Origin: Thomasclavelia cocleata
GTDB taxonomy: Bacteria > Bacillota_I > Bacilli_A > Erysipelotrichales > Coprobacillaceae
DNA length: 55,853 nucleotides
Assembly (NCBI RefSeq): GCF_900102365.1
Contig: NZ_FOIN01000007.1
Location: 41,329-97,181, forward strand
Reading direction: 5' to 3'
Made by a program: the position numbers and the translations under genes. Shown piece by piece: positions 29,508 to 38,040 of this stretch. Numbering within the stretch: the first letter of the stretch is position 1; each line of letters opens with the position of its first letter. The notes beneath the pieces are model-generated. The model was given only the letters and a program-made list of their open reading frames with translations. It made no database searches and was not told the DNA's origin.

Positions 29508-30116
29508 ATGGCCTTGAAAGTAGTTCCTACTAAAGGTAATTTAATTGCAATGAAAAAATCATTGCAATTAGCTAACCTTGGATATAATCTAATGGATCAA
29601 AAACGTAATGTTTTGATTAAAGAAATGATGACTTTATTAGATGATGTAAAAATTATTCGTGATCAGATTACATCTTCATATCAAGAAGCATATGATGCTC
29701 TTCAGGAAGCTAATATCTCAATGGGATTAATTACTGACATAGTTAACAGTACACCTGAAGATTATGGAATTTCAATTGCTTATCGCAGTGTTATGGGGGT
29801 TGAAATACCAAAAATATCATATAACAAACAACCATTGAAGATGACATATGATATTGAACGTTCTAATTCAAGAGTTGATTATGCCTATAATTGTTTTTAT
29901 AATGTAAAACAATTAACAGTATTATTGGCAGAGGTTGAAAATAGTGTCTATCGTTTAGCAAATACAATCCGAAAGACACAAAAAAGAGCTAATGCATTAA
30001 AAAATATTTCAATTCCTCGTTTTGAATCAACAATAAAAGTTATATCTGAAGCTTTAGAAGAAAAAGAGAGAGAAGAATTTACACGTCAAAAAGTTATTAA
30101 AGAAATGAAACGATGA
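29508..30116 (+). CDS. ntpD: V-type ATPase subunit D (central rotor stalk)
   Basis: The protein has 202 residues, two long helices, opening with VVPTKGNLIAMKKSLQLANLGYNLMDQKRNVLIKEM and ending with TIRKTQKRANALKNISIPRFESTIKVISEALEEKEREEF, both hallmark stretches of subunit D. It is the axle that turns within the A3B3 head. It begins 2 bases after the subunit B stop and is the last gene of the operon, closed by a terminator. Confidence 0.96.
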   Translation: MALKVVPTKGNLIAMKKSLQLANLGYNLMDQKRNVLIKEMMTLLDDVKIIRDQITSSYQEAYDALQEANISMGLITDIVNSTPEDYGISIAYRSVMGVEIPKISYNKQPLKMTYDIERSNSRVDYAYNCFYNVKQLTVLLAEVENSVYRLANTIRKTQKRANALKNISIPRFESTIKVISEALEEKEREEFTRQKVIKEMKR

Positions 30117-30142
30117 GACTCATATTATTTGAGTCTTTTTTT
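30116..30142 (+). terminator. Terminator of the V-ATPase operon
   Basis: AGACTCA (30116-30122) pairs with TGAGTCT (30130-30136) and is followed by a T run. The left arm starts in the ntpD stop codon. Confidence 0.88.
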
Positions 30143-30210
30143 GTTATTAAAAGAAAAGTGATTACATAATAAAATGTAACCACTTTAACTTAATTGATTA
30201 AAGATGTAAA

Positions 30211-30639
30211 TTATTTTTGAATAAATTTAATGTCTTCATTAGTTAATGAATATGTCAAATCTGTAGGGGAATTAGAGCGAATATGAATTAAATTATTATC
30301 TTCAATTCTACCATTCCAAGTAGCAATGACAATAACTTTTTTAGCTAATGCTTTTAAAAAAGCTAACATATCAATGTTTGAATCTTTAGCATAAAGAATT
30401 CTTTTATTATCTAGTAATAAAATATCTTTATCATATGTTTGTAAAAAATCATCCATAATTTTTACTAAATCAGTTGCATTATCTTTAAAAATATTATCTA
30501 AATTTAAAATAGGGATACCACAATAATCACTGTATTCATGAATAAGTTTTGATTTACCACTACCAGGACTACCAATAATTAATATTAGTTTATTTTCAAT
30601 GTTTTTTGCAACTTCGATTTCTTTAAGTAATTGATCCAT
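30211..30639 (-). CDS. Orphan BrxF-like P-loop ATPase
   Basis: The protein has 142 residues. Walker A is GSPGSGKS (residues 23-30), Walker B is DILLLDN (72-78), and VIVIATWNGRIEDNNLIHI (103-120) follows. This order, the LLLDN...ILY pairing, the ATWNG motif and the length match BrxF, the small P-loop protein of type 3 BREX phage-defence systems, as I recall that family. No other BREX gene (PglZ, BrxL, BrxC, methylase) lies in the window, so it stands alone between the V-ATPase operon and a lipoprotein gene. AAAGGAGG precedes the ATG on the minus strand. A generic small AAA-like ATPase is the alternative. Confidence 0.7.
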   Translation of the reverse strand: MDQLLKEIEVAKNIENKLILIIGSPGSGKSKLIHEYSDYCGIPILNLDNIFKDNATDLVKIMDDFLQTYDKDILLLDNKRILYAKDSNIDMLAFLKALAKKVIVIATWNGRIEDNNLIHIRSNSPTDLTYSLTNEDIKFIQK

Positions 30640-30771
30640 AATTTTAACCTCCTTTTTTAACGAATCTAAAAATATTATAAAAATCGAATGTATCTTATAT
30701 ATTTATTTTATCATTATTAATTGTTATTTGATAGTAATATTATAAGATATTTCCTGGGGAATAATGTCGAT

Positions 30772-31134
30772 TTATTTGTAATTATCAGTGATTTTTATAA
30801 TACTATCTTGATTTGTTTGATACCAGTCATTATTAATGTTAACTAGTGAATTTAAAAATGATATTTTAAATAATTCTTTATTGTTTTTGTCAAAACCTCT
30901 TGCATAAAGGCTCCATCCTTTAATATTCTGTTTACTAATTTTTTCAACTTCTAATTTATTAATATTATCAACAAATATTTTTGCTTCATCATAATCTAGC
31001 TGAATTTCAATAAGTCCTTTTTCACTTGTAAGTTTTAAATCTATTTTATCAGCATATTCAAGTCTAATTTTATTATTTGTATTACAACCTGTAAGTATAA
31101 TTAATATAATAATAAGAATATTAAGTTTTTTCAT
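30772..31134 (-). CDS. Small lipoprotein of unknown function
   Basis: The protein has 120 residues. A signal sequence ends in the lipobox LTGC with Cys17 as the lipidated residue. The mature part is a small mixed alpha/beta domain with no motif I recognise (KIDLKLTSEKGLIEIQLDYDEAKIFV... GWSLYARGFDKNNKELFKISF). AGAGGTGAT precedes the ATG. It is divergent from the propeller/ABC operon and shares a 155-bp upstream region with it. Confidence 0.75.
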   Translation of the reverse strand: MKKLNILIIILIILTGCNTNNKIRLEYADKIDLKLTSEKGLIEIQLDYDEAKIFVDNINKLEVEKISKQNIKGWSLYARGFDKNNKELFKISFLNSLVNINNDWYQTNQDSIIKITDNYK

Positions 31135-31208
31135 ATATTTATAATCACCTCTAATTTAAGTATATCATAATATTAATTAAAATTGTCTGTAATTAATTAT
31201 AAAATAAG

Positions 31209-31259
31209 TGTACTACATATTGTAATACAGTTGATGTGGTGTTATAATAAAACTGTATT
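31209..31259 (+). promoter_or_regulatory. Promoter of the propeller/ABC operon with overlapping operator repeats
   Basis: TTGTAA (31220-31225) and TATAAT (31243-31248) are 17 bases apart. A near-palindrome at 31209-31229 (half-sites TGTACTAC and GTAATACA) covers the -35 and resembles operators of YtrA-type GntR repressors. AATACAGTT (31224-31232) and AACTGTATT (31251-31259) form a perfect 9-bp inverted repeat around the -10, and a third ATACAGTT occurs just before the ribosome binding site. Repression by a DNA-binding protein encoded elsewhere is inferred. Confidence 0.6.
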
Positions 31260-31289
31260 AATCATAGTGATACAGTTAGGAGGAATATC

Positions 31290-34200
31290 ATGAAAAAATT
31301 ATTATCATTAGTAGTAATATTGTTGATGATTGTGCCAATACCTATTCAAGGGGCAAAGAAAGTTACAAGTATTGAATCGTATAGTCAGGGAAAAGAGGTA
31401 AAGGGAGATGTTGTCGCAAAAGAAGTTGTACTTAGTGATGAACTAAAGGGGATGATGGTTGCTAGTGATGAAGGGTTAGAGTTTGTTGATGATGTAAATT
31501 TTATTATTAATCTTAATCATCCAGTTAAACGTTTTGAAGTAATTGATGATATTGATAATGATGGTGTAAAGGATGTTGCAGTTTATCTAAAAACAGGTAC
31601 TGGTTATAGCAATTTCCAAATAGTTAGTTCTAAAAATTCTAAAGTTTTATATGAAACTGCATTAACACATAAAACAATTGATGAAAATAATAGTGTAATT
31701 GTAGAAAATTCAATTGTAAGACAAATATTAAGTAATGATAAAATAGTTTATTTAATTTATGATCATCATTTATTAGCTATAGATGCTGATAAAAAAGAGG
31801 TTATTTTTGATTATGAGGACAAAGATAATATTTGGAAAATGGTCATATTTGATAATCAAATCATCTTTACAACTCAGCAAGGACAGGTAATCAGTATTGA
31901 TAAGAAAAGGGGTGATCTCAATTATCGGACAACTGTTGTTAAGCCATTAGATATAGAAGTTAAATATCACAACAATGAAAAGCAAGAAGTAAATATGAAT
32001 GTTTGGGATATCTTAATTTTAAAAGATAAATTATATGTTACTAGTGAAATCGATAAACTTTATCAAATGGATATTGGTACAGGTGAAGTAATCAAAGAAC
32101 TAGAATTAAGTGTAGTTAGTCAAGATAAGATATCTAAGCGATTAACTGAACAATCACGATATAATCCTAGTGAAGGAAAGGAAACAGTTTATGCTACTGG
32201 TGTATTTTCTAAAGCTTTTAATGGATATAAAATGAAAATGCTTAAAGATAATCTTATGTTAGTAGAAGCATATTTAGGTGATCAGGATTATTATTTGGTT
32301 TCTGATTTTGGTATTAATAATAAGGGAATTGAGCCGACATTATTATTGATTGATACAAAGAATTTAGAGGTTAAAAGTAAAATTAAACTGGATCAATATA
32401 GTTTAGATTGTTCTAATACTACTTTGTCAACTTATCAGGGAAAAGATGTATTGATTATTCCTAGTAGTGTAAATAGAGGGATATTAAGAGTTTCTGTCTA
32501 TTCATTAGATGGTAAATTAATTTTGCAAAATGATTTAAAAAATTTAGGAGTTGGTTTAGAGAATGTAAAAATAAATATTAGTAATTATGGAAATGATTAT
32601 TTATTACAGATTAGTGATGGTAGTAGTTATATTTTGAAGGAAGATTTAAAAACGATTAATTCATTAGGAAGTTCTAAAATAGTTAATAAAATAACTGATT
32701 TGGATCAGGGAATACTTGTTTCTAGTAATCAGGATGGTAAAATAAATAAAATTCTTAAATTAGGTTTAAATGGTAGAGATGATGTTTTGATGCAAGTCAA
32801 TATACCAGATCAGTATCTAAATAGTGGTTTTGAGGCAATTAATTATAATGAAGATAGTAATGAAATTTTAACTTTAGTTAATGAGAAAAATAGTTTAAAT
32901 GAAGTTATTGCAAGTCATATTTTAATAATTAATGCAGGAGATGGAAATATTGTTTGTGATAAAAAAGTTTTAATTAATAATGGGCTAGATGAGAAAAATA
33001 AGTATTTAACTGGCAATGAAATAAGTTATTTTAGTGATTTGAATAATGATGGTAAAAAAGAAATTTTAATTGATGATTGTATTATTGATGGTGGTACATA
33101 TACTTTTAAAGCACATTATGAACAATTAGTTGAAGATAATGGAACAGTTATTGATGCTGGAGATTTAAATAATGATGGAATTAGTGATTTAGTTAGTGTT
33201 GGTGAAACGGAGATGCGTGTTTATTATTCAAATAAAAATGGATATGAGATAACTTATCAAAAAAGTAATCTTGTTAAAAAGTATGATAAGAATCTATTAA
33301 ATAATCAACAAGTTAAAGTAATAGGTGATTTGGATCATAAAGGAATTAATTTATTTGTAATTAATGCTCGTAATAAAAATGGATGTCAGTATTATCAGGC
33401 TATTGATCCAAAAAATTTATCAGTACGTTTTAATTTAATGGAAGATGGGGTTTTTGATTGGGGAGAGAGTTTTACATTAACAGGAATTGATTATAATCAT
33501 GATGGAATTGATGATCTGTTATTTAATACACCAGAAAATAAACAAAAAATTATAAGTGGTAAGGATGGAACTTTAATTACTGATATTAAAAGAGAAAGTG
33601 ATGAATATGGTCAAGAAAGTACACCAGCTGTATTAGAAAATATTATTCCTATTAATATTGATGATAATGGACAAATTATATATCAATTGGAAGATATAAA
33701 TGATGATAATGTTAGGGAACTAGGTTATATTTATTTTGATTATAGTCAAAATAATAATTATATTAAACTTAGAATTCTGGATGGGAAAAGTTTAAAGGAG
33801 TTGAAGGTATGTAATTTGGATAATCTTAAATATTCTGATTTAATTATAGTGCCTGTTTTAGGACAGAGTAAAATCATAATAAAAGGTGATGACAATAATC
33901 AGATTTATGATTATAAAAATGAAGTATTAGTAGCTGGTTGTAATATTGATGCAGTTAGTGCAAGAACATTAAATAGTGGACAAATCTTAATTGAAAATAA
34001 TGGTGGGCAATTATATGCTTTTGATGATCATTGTGATTTTAAGTTAGTTGATTTTGAGCATGAAAAGTTTAATAGTGGGGATATCACTATTAAATATCAA
34101 AGTGAAAAATCAGGGATGATGAGTGTTTATGATCAAGGAAGTCTGATTGCAACTAGTACAGCAGAAAAGATTGATTTAAAATTATTGGCAGGTAAACATC

Positions 34201-34400
34201 GACTTGTCTTTTCTTATGATGATGGACAGGGCAAAGTTACACATATAACTAAGCAAATTGAAGTGCATAAATCTTCGATAATTAAATATTTCGCAATTTT
34301 ATTAACTTTAATAATTGTATCAGCAGGTATATTTACTGTTGTATACCCAAAATATCGGTTGGAAAAGAAAGTGGGTGTAAGACATGGAAAAAATAATTAA
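31290..34400 (+). CDS. Secreted, membrane-anchored beta-propeller/FG-GAP repeat protein linked to an ABC exporter
   Basis: The protein has 1036 residues. A signal peptide (1-21) is followed by repeated beta-rich blades mixing PQQ/WD-like strands with Asp-rich FG-GAP/EF-like loops: DIDNDGVKDVAVY, SDLNNDGKKEILIDD, GDLNNDGISDLVSVG, DYNHDGIDDLLFNT, EDINDDNVRELGYIYF. These loops probably bind calcium. A C-terminal membrane segment (IIKYFAILLTLIIVSAGIFTVVY) and a basic tail anchor it, so the propeller lies outside the cell. AGGAGG precedes the ATG. The ABC ATPase gene overlaps its end by 17 bases, and the two are surely co-translated. It is probably a sensor, receptor or substrate-holding part of the transporter; no function is known to me. 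Confidence 0.8.
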   Translation: MKKLLSLVVILLMIVPIPIQGAKKVTSIESYSQGKEVKGDVVAKEVVLSDELKGMMVASDEGLEFVDDVNFIINLNHPVKRFEVIDDIDNDGVKDVAVYLKTGTGYSNFQIVSSKNSKVLYETALTHKTIDENNSVIVENSIVRQILSNDKIVYLIYDHHLLAIDADKKEVIFDYEDKDNIWKMVIFDNQIIFTTQQGQVISIDKKRGDLNYRTTVVKPLDIEVKYHNNEKQEVNMNVWDILILKDKLYVTSEIDKLYQMDIGTGEVIKELELSVVSQDKISKRLTEQSRYNPSEGKETVYATGVFSKAFNGYKMKMLKDNLMLVEAYLGDQDYYLVSDFGINNKGIEPTLLLIDTKNLEVKSKIKLDQYSLDCSNTTLSTYQGKDVLIIPSSVNRGILRVSVYSLDGKLILQNDLKNLGVGLENVKINISNYGNDYLLQISDGSSYILKEDLKTINSLGSSKIVNKITDLDQGILVSSNQDGKINKILKLGLNGRDDVLMQVNIPDQYLNSGFEAINYNEDSNEILTLVNEKNSLNEVIASHILIINAGDGNIVCDKKVLINNGLDEKNKYLTGNEISYFSDLNNDGKKEILIDDCIIDGGTYTFKAHYEQLVEDNGTVIDAGDLNNDGISDLVSVGETEMRVYYSNKNGYEITYQKSNLVKKYDKNLLNNQQVKVIGDLDHKGINLFVINARNKNGCQYYQAIDPKNLSVRFNLMEDGVFDWGESFTLTGIDYNHDGIDDLLFNTPENKQKIISGKDGTLITDIKRESDEYGQESTPAVLENIIPINIDDNGQIIYQLEDINDDNVRELGYIYFDYSQNNNYIKLRILDGKSLKELKVCNLDNLKYSDLIIVPVLGQSKIIIKGDDNNQIYDYKNEVLVAGCNIDAVSARTLNSGQILIENNGGQLYAFDDHCDFKLVDFEHEKFNSGDITIKYQSEKSGMMSVYDQGSLIATSTAEKIDLKLLAGKHRLVFSYDDGQGKVTHITKQIEVHKSSIIKYFAILLTLIIVSAGIFTVVYPKYRLEKKVGVRHGKNN

Positions 34401-35319
34401 AGTTGAGCAGATGAATAAGTTTTTTGGATCATTTAAAGCAATTGATGATCTATCCTTTGAATTAGAAGGTGGAAAGATTTATGGAATTATTGGACCAAAT
34501 GGTGCAGGAAAATCAACAACGATGTCTTTATTAATGGGACTTATCTTTCCAAGTAGTGGAAGTGGGTCAATAAAAGGTTATCCTTTAGGTTCTAATGAAG
34601 CTAAAAAATTAATGGGCTATTCACCTGAATTTCCTAATTTTTATAGTGATATGAGCTGTCTGGAATATCTTGTTTATATGGGGCAGTTATCAAATCTGGA
34701 TTTTGATACAGCGGTAAAAAGGGCTTTGGAATTATTAGACGAGTTTGGATTATTAGAACATAAATTAAAAAAAGTTGCTAAGTTTTCTACGGGAATGAAG
34801 AAAAAAGTTGGCTTGATACAGGCGATGCTTCATGATCCTGAAGTATTATTATTAGATGAGCCAACTGCAAACCTAGATCCGACTAGTAGAAGCGAAATTA
34901 TTCAAACTTTGAAAAAGCTGGTTAGTCAACGTAAAATGACAGTATTAATAAGTTCGCATGTATTAAGTGAATTAGAAATGATTATTGATCATGTAGTTAT
35001 GATTAATAAAGGACATGTTGTTTTAAATCAGCCTATTGAGGTTGTACAACAGGGATTTAATCAAGAAAAGGTATTGGTTAGTACTAAACAAAATAGTTTA
35101 TTGAAGAAGTATCTGGATATTAATGGTTATAATTATAATTTAGAAAAAAATGTTTTTAGAATTACAACAAAGGATAAAGCTGTTTGTAAGCGGGATTTAA
35201 TTAAATTTATTTATGAAAATGATGTTGAATTAGATTTATTTAAAGAAGAAGTAATTACTTTAGAGAAACTCTATCAGCAAGTTGTGGAGGATAATGAGAA
35301 TGAAAGTGTTGTTATGTAA
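34384..35319 (+). CDS. ABC transporter ATP-binding protein
   Basis: The protein has 311 residues. Walker A is GPNGAGKST, the Q-loop region is MGYSPEFPNFY, the signature is FSTGMKKKVGLIQA (STGMK instead of LSGGQ), and Walker B is VLLLDEPTANLDP, then SSHVLSELE for the H-loop. The atypical signature is common in the NosF/YtrB-type exporters. A C-terminal extension of about 90 residues follows. It would power the permease encoded by the next gene, whose start overlaps it. Confidence 0.93.
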   Translation: MEKIIKVEQMNKFFGSFKAIDDLSFELEGGKIYGIIGPNGAGKSTTMSLLMGLIFPSSGSGSIKGYPLGSNEAKKLMGYSPEFPNFYSDMSCLEYLVYMGQLSNLDFDTAVKRALELLDEFGLLEHKLKKVAKFSTGMKKKVGLIQAMLHDPEVLLLDEPTANLDPTSRSEIIQTLKKLVSQRKMTVLISSHVLSELEMIIDHVVMINKGHVVLNQPIEVVQQGFNQEKVLVSTKQNSLLKKYLDINGYNYNLEKNVFRITTKDKAVCKRDLIKFIYENDVELDLFKEEVITLEKLYQQVVEDNENESVVM

Positions 35320-36217
35320 GACTTTTACAAAGATGTTTAAGGTTATTCCTGTCACAGTTGTTTGGTTGATTAGTGGGGCATTTGGTTTACTGTTTGCATA
35401 TATATATAATAATTTATCAGAAAGTATTTTAACTTATGCTCGTTTTTCTAATAATATTATGAATATTTATAGTTTAATGGCTTTTATGATAATTGTAGGG
35501 ATAATGATTTGGATTATTTGTTCTAATAGTTCTACTGGTTTGTTTGCACAGGAGATACATGAGGGTACAATTAGATTGTTGTTATCAAAAGAAATTACTC
35601 GAATGCATTTAGTTGCTGGTAAAATATCAGGAATGATTTTAGGCAGTGTTGTTTATTTGATTACAAGCTTTTCAGTATTTATCTTGGTTTTTTGTTTATT
35701 TAGTGGAGTTGAAAAAGATATTTTGTTACTGATTATTAAAGCTACATTAGTATTTATTGTTTATGGTATGGTTGTAATTTTTATTATTGGTGGGTTAGGA
35801 ACATTTTTATCAACAATATTTAAAAAGAAAGTGCCTGCTGTTTTGATTATGGTAGCATTAGCAGGATTAATATTTGGAATTATTCCAATTGTAAGAGTGA
35901 TATTGACTCAACTTGGATATTATAATCAATTTAATTTATATATCTTTGATTTAAATTATCATTTCGGATTAATATTTAACAACTTTTTAGGTAGTATTGG
36001 AGATTTATCACTTTCACAAAGTACAAATGCTATATTTACAATATTTACTAATTTATATATTTCTGAAGCTGTTGATATTGATGTAGCTCTTGCTAATGTA
36101 TGTTATTATGATATTAATACATCATTAAATGGTTTGTTAGTGACATTTAGTTATATAATAGGGGCAGCTGTTTTATATGGAGTATCATTTAAAACGATGT
36201 TGAAAAAAGATATTTAA
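35300..36217 (+). CDS. ABC-2 type transporter permease
   Basis: The protein has about 305 residues with six or so membrane segments (for example VTVVWLISGAFGLLFAYIY, MAFMIIVGIMIWIICS, LVFIVYGMVVIFIIGGLGTF, VLIMVALAGLIFGIIPIV, LLVTFSYIIGAAVLYGVSF). HEGTIRLLLSKEITRMHLVAGKISG is a coupling-helix motif of NosY/ABC-2 permeases. GGAGG (35286-35290) is best spaced for the ATG at 35300; ATG at 35294 is possible. The gene overlaps the ATPase gene by 20 bases. The substrate is unknown. Confidence 0.88.
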   Translation: MKVLLCKTFTKMFKVIPVTVVWLISGAFGLLFAYIYNNLSESILTYARFSNNIMNIYSLMAFMIIVGIMIWIICSNSSTGLFAQEIHEGTIRLLLSKEITRMHLVAGKISGMILGSVVYLITSFSVFILVFCLFSGVEKDILLLIIKATLVFIVYGMVVIFIIGGLGTFLSTIFKKKVPAVLIMVALAGLIFGIIPIVRVILTQLGYYNQFNLYIFDLNYHFGLIFNNFLGSIGDLSLSQSTNAIFTIFTNLYISEAVDIDVALANVCYYDINTSLNGLLVTFSYIIGAAVLYGVSFKTMLKKDI

Positions 36218-36223
36218 TTATTT

Positions 36224-36252
36224 GAGCCATATTAATTGTGGCTCTTTTGTTT
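36224..36252 (+). terminator. Terminator of the propeller/ABC operon
   Basis: GAGCCA (36224-36229) pairs with TGGCTC (36239-36244), followed by TTTTGTTTT. Confidence 0.8.
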
Positions 36253-36275
36253 TATAATTAGATAGGGTGATAAAA

Positions 36276-37157
36276 ATGTATTTAGTATTTGATATTGGTG
36301 GTACAGTAATAAAATATGGTTATTTAAATGAACAAGGGGAAATTATAGATAAAGATGAATTTATTTCTGAATTAACTGATTTAGATATATTTATTGATAC
36401 TTTAAGTAAAATATATTTTGAAAGTAAATATGAAATTAAAGGGATAGCTTTATCATGTCCTGGGGTTATAAACACTAAAACAGGAGTGATTAAAACGATT
36501 GTGGCTTATCCTTATTTAGAAGGAATATGTTTAACAAAGATGCTATCAAAAGCATGTAATGGTATAAAGGTCACAATTGAAAATGATGCTAAGTGTGCAG
36601 GGTTAGCAGAGATGTGGTGTGGTAATGGTGTAAATTATAAAGATGCAGTAGTAATTGTACTGGGTACTGGAATCGGGGGAGTGGTAATTAAAGATAAAAA
36701 GATTCATCATGGTGCTAATTTATTTGCAGGGGAAATTAGTAATGTTATAGTTGATTATGGTGAAAGTCAATGTAAAATTGTAACTTGGTCAGATATAGCA
36801 TCAACTAAAGCACTTTGTAAACGGGTAGCAAGAGTTTTAGGAATAGATAATATAAATGGAAGAGAAATATTTGAACTGGTAAAGCAAAAAGACAAAAAAG
36901 TAACTCAGGTATTATCATCTTTTTGTTTTGATATTGCAATTCAATTATATAATCTGCAGTATATGTATGATCCTGAAATTATTTGTATTGGTGGTGGAAT
37001 ATCGAGGCAAGAGATTTTAATTGACATGATTAATGATGCAGTAATGTCAATTTATAATCAGACTAGTCAGTTATTAATACCAAAGGTCATGGGTTGTAAA
37101 CATTATAATGAGGCAAATTTGATAGGGGCTCTGTATCATCATATAATGGCAAAATAA
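36276..37157 (+). CDS. ROK family sugar kinase
   Basis: The protein has 293 residues from the ATG at 36276; GTG at 36267 falls inside the AGGGTGAT ribosome binding site and is rejected. Landmarks are the phosphate-binding VFDIGGTVIKYG, IENDAKCAGLAEMWCGNG with the catalytic Asp, VIVLGTGIGGVVI and ICIGGGIS. The zinc-binding CxCGxxGCxE motif of glucokinase-type ROK proteins is absent (CKIVTWSDIAS stands there), as in BglK-like beta-glucoside kinases. It has no helix-turn-helix, so it is a kinase rather than a repressor. The sugar is not decided by sequence. Confidence 0.88.
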   Translation: MYLVFDIGGTVIKYGYLNEQGEIIDKDEFISELTDLDIFIDTLSKIYFESKYEIKGIALSCPGVINTKTGVIKTIVAYPYLEGICLTKMLSKACNGIKVTIENDAKCAGLAEMWCGNGVNYKDAVVIVLGTGIGGVVIKDKKIHHGANLFAGEISNVIVDYGESQCKIVTWSDIASTKALCKRVARVLGIDNINGREIFELVKQKDKKVTQVLSSFCFDIAIQLYNLQYMYDPEIICIGGGISRQEILIDMINDAVMSIYNQTSQLLIPKVMGCKHYNEANLIGALYHHIMAK

Positions 37158-37278
37158 TTTAAATTTTTATAATAAAAAAGTATCATATTGGTCTTAATAA
37201 TGGTATAGTATAAAAGGTAATTAATTATGTATATACCACTTTGATTATAGATTAAGCATGGTTTTAGGGGGATGACAT

Positions 37279-38040
37279 ATGAGTAGAATATGTAAAGTAA
37301 AAGATATCTTAATTGGTGAAGGGATTCCAAAAGTATGTGTACCAGTGATAAGTGATAATCATCAAGCGATTATTACGGATCTAATTAGATTGAAAGATCT
37401 TGAAATAGATTTAATTGAACTTAGAATTGATTATTTTAAGGATTTATTAAATCATCAAAAATTAAATGAGTTATTTAAAATGATAGCTTCTTTAGAAATA
37501 AAACAGGCTCTTATTTTAACTTATCGAAGTGTTAAAGAAGGTGGCTTAGGAAATCTAAGTTATGAAGAATACATTAATTTATATTCCTTAGCTTTAGAAA
37601 GTGGAGCATTTGATATATATGATGTTGAATTATCAAGTGGGACAAATACTATTATTACGTTGAATAATATGATTCACGAATCAAATTGCAAAGTTATTAT
37701 GTCTAACCATGATTTTACTAGAACGCCAAGTTTAGATACTATGTTAGAGAAAATTAAACAAATGGATTCATTAGAAGCAGATATTATTAAATTGGCAGTT
37801 ATGCCAGAAGATTACAAAGATGTTTTATTAGTTTTAGAGATGACTTTACGAGCTAATGAAATACATGATAAGCCAATTGTGACAATGTCTATGTCAAATC
37901 TAGGAACTGCAACAAGAATTTTAGGTGAACAGTTTGGTTCTGCAATTACTTTTGGAAAAGATCATGATGCTTCTGCGTTAGGACAAATTGATGTTCGTTC
38001 ATTAAATATGATGTTAAAAATCATTCATGAAAATAATTAG
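37279..38040 (+). CDS. aroD: Type I 3-dehydroquinate dehydratase
   Basis: The protein has 253 residues. The Schiff-base lysine is K171 (DIIKLAV) and the catalytic histidine is H144 (MSNHDFTRTP); LILTYRSVKEGG and PIVTMSMSNLGTATRILGEQFGSAITFG are also typical. It dehydrates 3-dehydroquinate to 3-dehydroshikimate in the shikimate pathway. No other shikimate genes are near, and it stands alone with its own terminator. GGGGGATGAC precedes the ATG. Confidence 0.95.
   Translation: MSRICKVKDILIGEGIPKVCVPVISDNHQAIITDLIRLKDLEIDLIELRIDYFKDLLNHQKLNELFKMIASLEIKQALILTYRSVKEGGLGNLSYEEYINLYSLALESGAFDIYDVELSSGTNTIITLNNMIHESNCKVIMSNHDFTRTPSLDTMLEKIKQMDSLEADIIKLAVMPEDYKDVLLVLEMTLRANEIHDKPIVTMSMSNLGTATRILGEQFGSAITFGKDHDASALGQIDVRSLNMMLKIIHENN

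Follow-up and report, generated by a model that had tools for sequence, protein, structure and literature searches.

A 55,853-nucleotide stretch of the Thomasclavelia cocleata genome (contig NZ_FOIN01000007.1), here called the window, carries on its forward strand three overlapping genes for a large β-propeller protein, an ATP-binding cassette (ABC) ATPase, and an ABC-2 permease, preceded by a promoter with two tandem copies of a YtrA-type operator (Table 1). This genome is labeled G000 below, and other G labels denote compared genomes. An earlier note on this DNA, made from the sequence, had described a propeller protein fused by overlap to an ABC exporter. The 17-base overlap that it gave for the propeller and ATPase genes is exact in the open reading frame (ORF) calls, and the ATPase and permease genes do overlap. 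The permease ORF opens at TTG 35282; a GGAGG lies at 35286-35290, ahead of ATG 35300, and the latter is more likely the start, giving an overlap of 20 bases. The idea of a propeller-ABC gene fusion was rejected, as the genes overlap and are not fused; judging by this arrangement, they are probably translationally coupled. An Rfam scan of 30000-37500 found no RNA element.

Table 1. Features of the propeller-ABC operon and of its predicted outer subunit (window coordinates, or residues of the 1036-aa protein)
Feature	Position	Strand	Remark
Operator 1, AGTGTA-N13-TACAGT	31207..31231	+	One half-site mismatch to ACTGTA-N13-TACAGT; contains the -35
-35 hexamer TTGTAA	31220..31225	+	Within operator 1
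-10 hexamer TATAAT	31243..31248	+	Extended (TG one base upstream), 17 bp from -35
Operator 2, ACTGTA-N13-TACAGT	31252..31276	+	No half-site mismatches; covers the expected transcription start
Outer (propeller) subunit gene	31290..34400	+	ORF, 1036 aa
Signal peptide-like segment	Residues 4-22
N-terminal BamB-like propeller	Residues about 34-455
Second propeller, FG-GAP/integrin-like	Residues about 456-920
Immunoglobulin (Ig)-like domain	Residues about 928-992
Single C-terminal transmembrane (TM) segment	Residues 992-1010		By hydropathy; 997-1027 as model helix; then a short cytoplasmic tail
ABC ATPase gene	34384..35319	+	ORF, 311 aa
ABC-2 permease gene	35300..36217	+	305 aa from ATG 35300; ORF opens at TTG 35282
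Intrinsic-terminator-like stem-loop, then TTTTGTTTTA	36224..36244	+	Operon end

The earlier description of the outer subunit as a membrane-anchored protein with FG-GAP and Asp loops was borne out. FG-GAP family PF13517 matched at 33.9 bits (Pfam cut-off, 26.9), domain profiles recognized repeats of FG-GAP and of pyrroloquinoline quinone (PQQ)/BamB-like type, and four strict D-x-[DN]-x-[DNS]-G loops occur at residues 87, 583, 625, and 734; these appear to be ordinary structural Ca-type loops. AlphaFold2 models built with 11 relatives (predicted local distance difference test, pLDDT, 79.5 and 84.2) and the sequence profiles together suggest a type I membrane protein in which two β-propellers stand on an Ig-like stalk. 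BamB was the best structural match of the subunit: the N-terminal propeller model agreed with it at a Z of 25.5 and a root-mean-square deviation (rmsd) of 2.9 over 307 residues, with 11% identity. The second propeller matched integrin alpha-V chains over profile positions 646-819 (E 3e-8) and, with PF13517 above its cut-off, is of the integrin-alpha FG-GAP type, although the structural match is loose. The endoplasmic reticulum (ER) membrane complex (EMC) appears among the Foldseek matches, and the top rows for the whole model were dropped as evidence of kinship because their alignments straddle both propellers at rmsd 14-28. No PQQ-associated-family model in NCBIfam matched the outer propeller at E 0.1. 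Identity to relatives falls from the Ig part, the most conserved large part, through the second propeller to the membrane-distal N-terminal propeller, the most divergent large domain, and the invariant residues of the protein include only one His and no Cys.

By the sequences of both remaining subunits, the transporter is of the ABC-2 type. The ATPase (PF00005, 92 bits) has Walker A GPNGAGKST, signature FSTGMKKKV, Walker B LLLDEP, and the SSHVL switch invariant in 11 rows of relatives; its nearest named transporters were ABCA (8e-67) and then NosF (2e-41), and it scored 150 bits against TIGR03864, below the cut-off of 302. The permease matched PF12679 (ABC2_membrane_2) at 32.5 bits (cut-off, 27.2), and a simple hydropathy scan gave about seven hydrophobic segments and a long loop at 196-278, so that both the ATPase motifs and the permease of about six TM segments that mark ABC-2 exporters were found. 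Export would be the default direction for such permeases; however, import is reported for PedA1A2BC of Pseudomonas putida, which likewise combines an ATPase, a permease, and a propeller (PMC6839425; PMC12997753; here and below, the cited papers are represented by excerpts).

Searches with the propeller profile gave 26 matches in 315 genomes of the order, 25 once a spurious one was removed, and seven in 392 genomes of the phylum, of which four lay outside the order, all in one family (f19). The match dropped, in G265, had an E of 1.8e-4 and covered 68 N-terminal positions in a 1659-aa frame without an ABC neighbor. The three-gene order, which the earlier note thought worth seeking in other Firmicutes, was complete in 26 of the 29 genomes with a true homologue, and an orphan propeller gene, which the earlier note had named as refuting its reading if regularly found, was seen in none; the remaining three are cut by contig ends, G286 after the propeller and ATPase genes and G009 and G455 before the ATPase gene. 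Those counted as complete include G252, whose propeller is split across two contigs, and G007, whose propeller gene lies in three frames. In the latter (L037 4837-8002) the ATPase and permease genes are intact, and the broken frame is either a draft error or a decaying gene. Seven of eight f19 genomes carry the module. Further complete sets occur in G652 (two), G653, and G650:C2, and a second propeller-ATPase pair in G637 precedes a gene for a 313-aa protein with no permease-profile match. In G650:C3, a tandem array (L177, 209500-229400) holds four propeller genes, each followed by a multi-TM permease-like gene of ~300 aa, and a single ATPase gene, between one propeller gene and its permease-like gene; of the permease-like genes, the three that are complete within this stretch show 6-7 hydrophobic segments and no permease-profile match. 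The array suggests several propeller-permease pairs sharing one ATPase. Plasmid records gave no match.

The earlier note had called the promoter doubly palindromic, placing a near-palindrome on the -35 and a perfect 9-bp repeat about the -10. Both exist, but they belong to a single operator that is present twice in tandem: two 25-bp dyads lie 45 bp apart, the second opening three bases past the -10, and the perfect 10-bp arms at 31223-31232 and 31251-31260 are the right half of the first dyad and the left half of the second. When the window was simulated 100 times by a first-order Markov model, a copy had on average 0.09 sites with no more than one mismatch (maximum, 1), and none had a pair 45 bp apart. 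Both operators are kept at the same spacing in all eight genus promoters with a propeller gene, where half-site columns are 94.8% conserved (18/24 invariant) versus 67.9% for columns outside operator and promoter, a mean reached by 0 of 20,000 random column sets. In G009, from a related genus, two perfect copies lie 39 bp apart ahead of the propeller gene. Bacillus subtilis YtrA, which represses two unlinked operons, binds AGTGTA-13bp-TACACT (PMC8060467), and the same geometry of 6-bp half-sites 13 bp apart, together with the constancy of the twin copies, upholds the suggestion of a YtrA/GntR-like operator. Only intergenic sites with 0-1 mismatch were used, a criterion picked after seeing the data; therefore, the nine G000 loci checked for sites with at most one mismatch were listed (the C72 site was left out), and only the propeller and ytrA-like promoter sites among them are both intergenic and upstream of a gene. 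At up to two mismatches, genome-wide matches to ACTGTA-N13-TACAGT were noise (122 per strand versus 151 for the control), and a loose pattern, GTACTA-N4-8-TARTAC, was dropped (11 matches in G000 versus 9 for the reversed control). The literature searched held no description of this operator, or of YtrA-type envelope control, in Thomasclavelia.

No regulator gene lies near the operon in the window. G000 encodes two short GntR proteins, and one of them, a 121-aa YtrA-like protein unlinked to the propeller operon (G000:C56, L042), is a strong candidate for its regulator, matching the expectation of a GntR-type regulator gene in the genome. It has the build of a short GntR regulator (~120 aa, helix-turn-helix and small C-terminal part; PF00392, 54 bits) and matched PDB entry 2du9/2ek5, which we take to be the YtrA-type Cgl2947, at 3.2e-7. 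Its best curated match was PmtR NF047563 (1.3e-22), at 80 bits against an equivalog cut-off of 200; by size and operator geometry it would belong with the YtrA subfamily. The gene heads an operon (L042 65-3462) that also encodes an ATPase and two large proteins (624 and 506 aa), which had no Pfam or NCBIfam match and show hydrophobic segments by eye, and its promoter has one operator copy with the same -35 placement and a 17-bp -35/-10 spacing. An orthologue is present in 9/9 genus genomes examined, each time with the operator ahead (0, 0, 0, 0, 0, 1, 1, 2, and 3 half-site mismatches of 12). A stricter pattern scan (at most one mismatch, nine relatives) found matches mainly at the propeller and ytrA-like promoters, the others being G002:C12, G002:C70, and G006:C1:2527118. 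G005 has a third target (G005:C1, L101 7610-10863), in which twin sites 45 bp apart precede an ATPase and an 831-aa FtsX/MacB_PCD permease. The propeller gene of G009 (G009:C95, L041) lies beside a presumably DegV-like gene and, in G000, such a gene neighbors the regulator operon, a hint of an ancient association between these operons.

Considering the constant gene set, the domain order, the intact ATPase motifs, the operators, and the matching regulator gene, we think it reasonably probable that the three products form one membrane machine, an ABC-2 permease/ATPase with a dedicated outer double propeller, which was co-opted into a YtrA-type regulon in Thomasclavelia. The half-transporters and the outer subunit would assemble as a single machine, with the Ig domain and TM helix docking the latter on the permease, and the membrane-distal, most divergent propeller would bind cargo or a target outside. 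ATP hydrolysis might then drive a substrate, perhaps a peptide, a metal, or a lipid-linked precursor, between membrane and propeller; NosD and PedA2 may handle substrates for their own transporters in this way. As the earlier note supposed, the operon is probably repressed in Thomasclavelia, and the unlinked YtrA-like GntR protein would be the repressor: its dimers would cover the -35 when bound to operator 1 and the transcription start when bound to operator 2. Release, most likely under envelope stress, would derepress both ABC operons; since the same operator precedes the repressor's own ABC operon, the two would rise together. This regulation can be tested directly: the operator and the putative repressor gene are named, and the target operons, two or three in number, belong to common gut bacteria. 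More tentatively, the module may represent a distinct three-subunit ABC-2 class, in which an obligate membrane-anchored double propeller would either receive cargo from the permease or hand cargo to it, and which in Thomasclavelia was drafted into a YtrA-type envelope-stress regulon of up to three unlinked ABC operons. Its scope so far is one order (Erysipelotrichales) and one other family of the same taxonomic class.

Several observations weigh against a co-opted three-part machine of this kind. The second propeller fits solved propellers loosely (integrin alpha-V and others; Z 8-9, rmsd mostly 6-9), and the full outer-subunit model reached a predicted template modeling score (pTM) of 0.67. 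The half-site is ACTGTA and not YtrA's AGTGTA, the second letter differing in three of the four half-sites (the exception is the left half of operator 1), and the second short GntR protein (G000:C69) could bind the same sites. In G009, which has twin sites, a YtrA-like orthologue was not found (best E 8.5e-10, in a 234-aa frame; genome 69% complete), whereas G008, the only one of the nine genus genomes without a propeller match, keeps the regulator, with the most decayed operator (three mismatches). Outside Thomasclavelia and G009, the operator is absent upstream of the propeller gene in all 23 genomes scanned (25 upstream stretches; best sites, 3-5 half-site mismatches). The propeller gene instead lies -46 to +66 bp from what we take to be a dus-like gene in 13 order-level genomes and -40 to +201 bp behind a presumed ligA-like gene in four f19 genomes; from this context, the module outside the genus is probably expressed with housekeeping genes. 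Since the operator is mostly absent there and the module usually lies behind such genes, envelope-stress sensing is not its general role, and stress sensing is unlikely as the ancestral function. Among the loci scanned, only Thomasclavelia and one related genus have the operator, and in Thomasclavelia and G009 YtrA-type control seems to be an added feature.

That same context, behind dus-like and ligA-like genes, favors a housekeeping envelope-assembly machine whose propellers would act as chaperone or scaffold on the external side of the membrane, in the manner of BamB or EMC1, with YtrA control in Thomasclavelia as a late addition. The near-constant presence of the module in f19, the match to BamB, and the ER membrane complex among the Foldseek matches point the same way. 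However, a common fold shows no function, and an essential role is made less likely by the patchy distribution in the order (25/315 genomes) and by rapid divergence; we regard this explanation as rather doubtful. The propeller could also, as the earlier note proposed, be a receptor for antimicrobial or wall stress, the transporter relaying the signal or removing the drug as in BceAB-like sensing, which we consider unlikely. YtrA-type operators are present, the FtsX/MacB pair of G005 stands under the same sites, and the outermost propeller diverges fast; moreover, the B. subtilis YtrA regulon responds to lipid II-binding agents, and compounds binding lipid-linked wall precursors are reported to induce it (PMC12772383). 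Yet in that bacterium the pattern of susceptibility predicted for the ytr operon is reported for ampicillin alone, apart from ertapenem at 37°C (PMC12772383). Neither a sensor kinase nor a regulator gene lies within or beside the operon here, and outside the genus the module stands without the operator, usually behind housekeeping genes.

By analogy with NosDFY (copper) and PedA1A2BC (lanthanide), two ABC systems whose outer subunit is a large repeat protein, the module might deliver a metal or cofactor, which seems improbable. PedA1A2BC, with permease, ATPase, and β-propeller in one operon, is reported to be needed for growth on low La3+ (PMC6839425), and the ATPase studied here matches NosF by profile and TIGR03864 below its cut-off. 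Against this, no evident metalloenzyme gene occurs in the neighborhood listed, the invariant residues of the propeller protein number a single His and no Cys, and the Asp loops are apparently of the ordinary structural Ca-type.

Upstream, and divergent from the operon, lies a gene for a 120-aa putative lipoprotein (30772-31134, -), with an orthologue in the same place only in G002 (59%) among the loci compared. A gene for a 142-aa small P-loop protein (30211-30639, -) lies between a vacuolar-type (V-)ATPase operon and the propeller operon, and it adjoins the latter in 7/7 other genus loci examined.

In its control, the favored co-opted machine resembles the B. subtilis YtrA regulon (ytrGABCDEF and ywoBCD), as described in the excerpts, in having a short GntR repressor, a 25-bp dyad with a 13-bp spacer, and a self-regulated ABC operon with an unlinked second operon of membrane proteins. 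It differs in its half-sites (ACTGTA/TACAGT), in its second operon, a propeller-ABC machine with two tandem operators, and in that the regulator's operon lacks a ytrEF-like pair, a pair of this kind being a target of its own in G005. Archaeal YtrA-like regulators are also reported to repress two loci of membrane proteins (PMC6746942), and in Staphylococcus aureus the YtrA-subfamily repressor PmtR controls an ABC exporter (PMC5080381). PmtR-PmtABCD thus shares with our system a YtrA-subfamily repressor and an ABC exporter, PmtR being the best curated match of the candidate regulator; however, the score falls below the family cut-off, and the Thomasclavelia regulator is unlinked to the propeller operon. 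We know of no outer propeller in Pmt.

Few ABC-2 transporters have a large outer subunit, and those that do show how cargo is passed on outside the membrane. The earlier note held that ABC-2 exporters seldom have such a partner and knew of no characterized example, a claim weakened by two systems. NosDFY combines an ABC-2 permease and ATPase with one large dedicated periplasmic subunit, NosD, which is a β-helix, whereas here both models and the sequence profiles give propellers, as a double propeller with its own membrane anchor. P. putida PedA1A2BC has an ABC ATPase, a permease, and a periplasmic β-propeller in one operon (PMC6839425), but PedA2 is of YVTN type and accompanied by a substrate-binding protein, whereas our module has two propellers, an Ig domain, a TM anchor, and no binding protein; the ATPase reached 150 of the 302 bits of TIGR03864, and no PQQ-associated propeller model matched. 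By these comparisons, the module is neither NosDFY nor PedA1A2BC, but may work like either. Its N-terminal propeller has the fold of BamB, and EMC1 has two luminal propellers and one TM helix; unlike these, the module has no known partners of the β-barrel assembly machinery (BAM) or EMC, and identity to BamB is low. Clostridioides difficile WalA, a predicted propeller lipoprotein of a two-component operon (PMC9210968), was set aside as a parallel, not being an ABC partner. The literature searched on propeller and ABC-2 systems in Gram-positives yielded nothing describing this system. Set beside these systems, what this module adds is the membrane-anchored double propeller, in a unit conserved across many species and multiplied in one genome as propeller-permease pairs.

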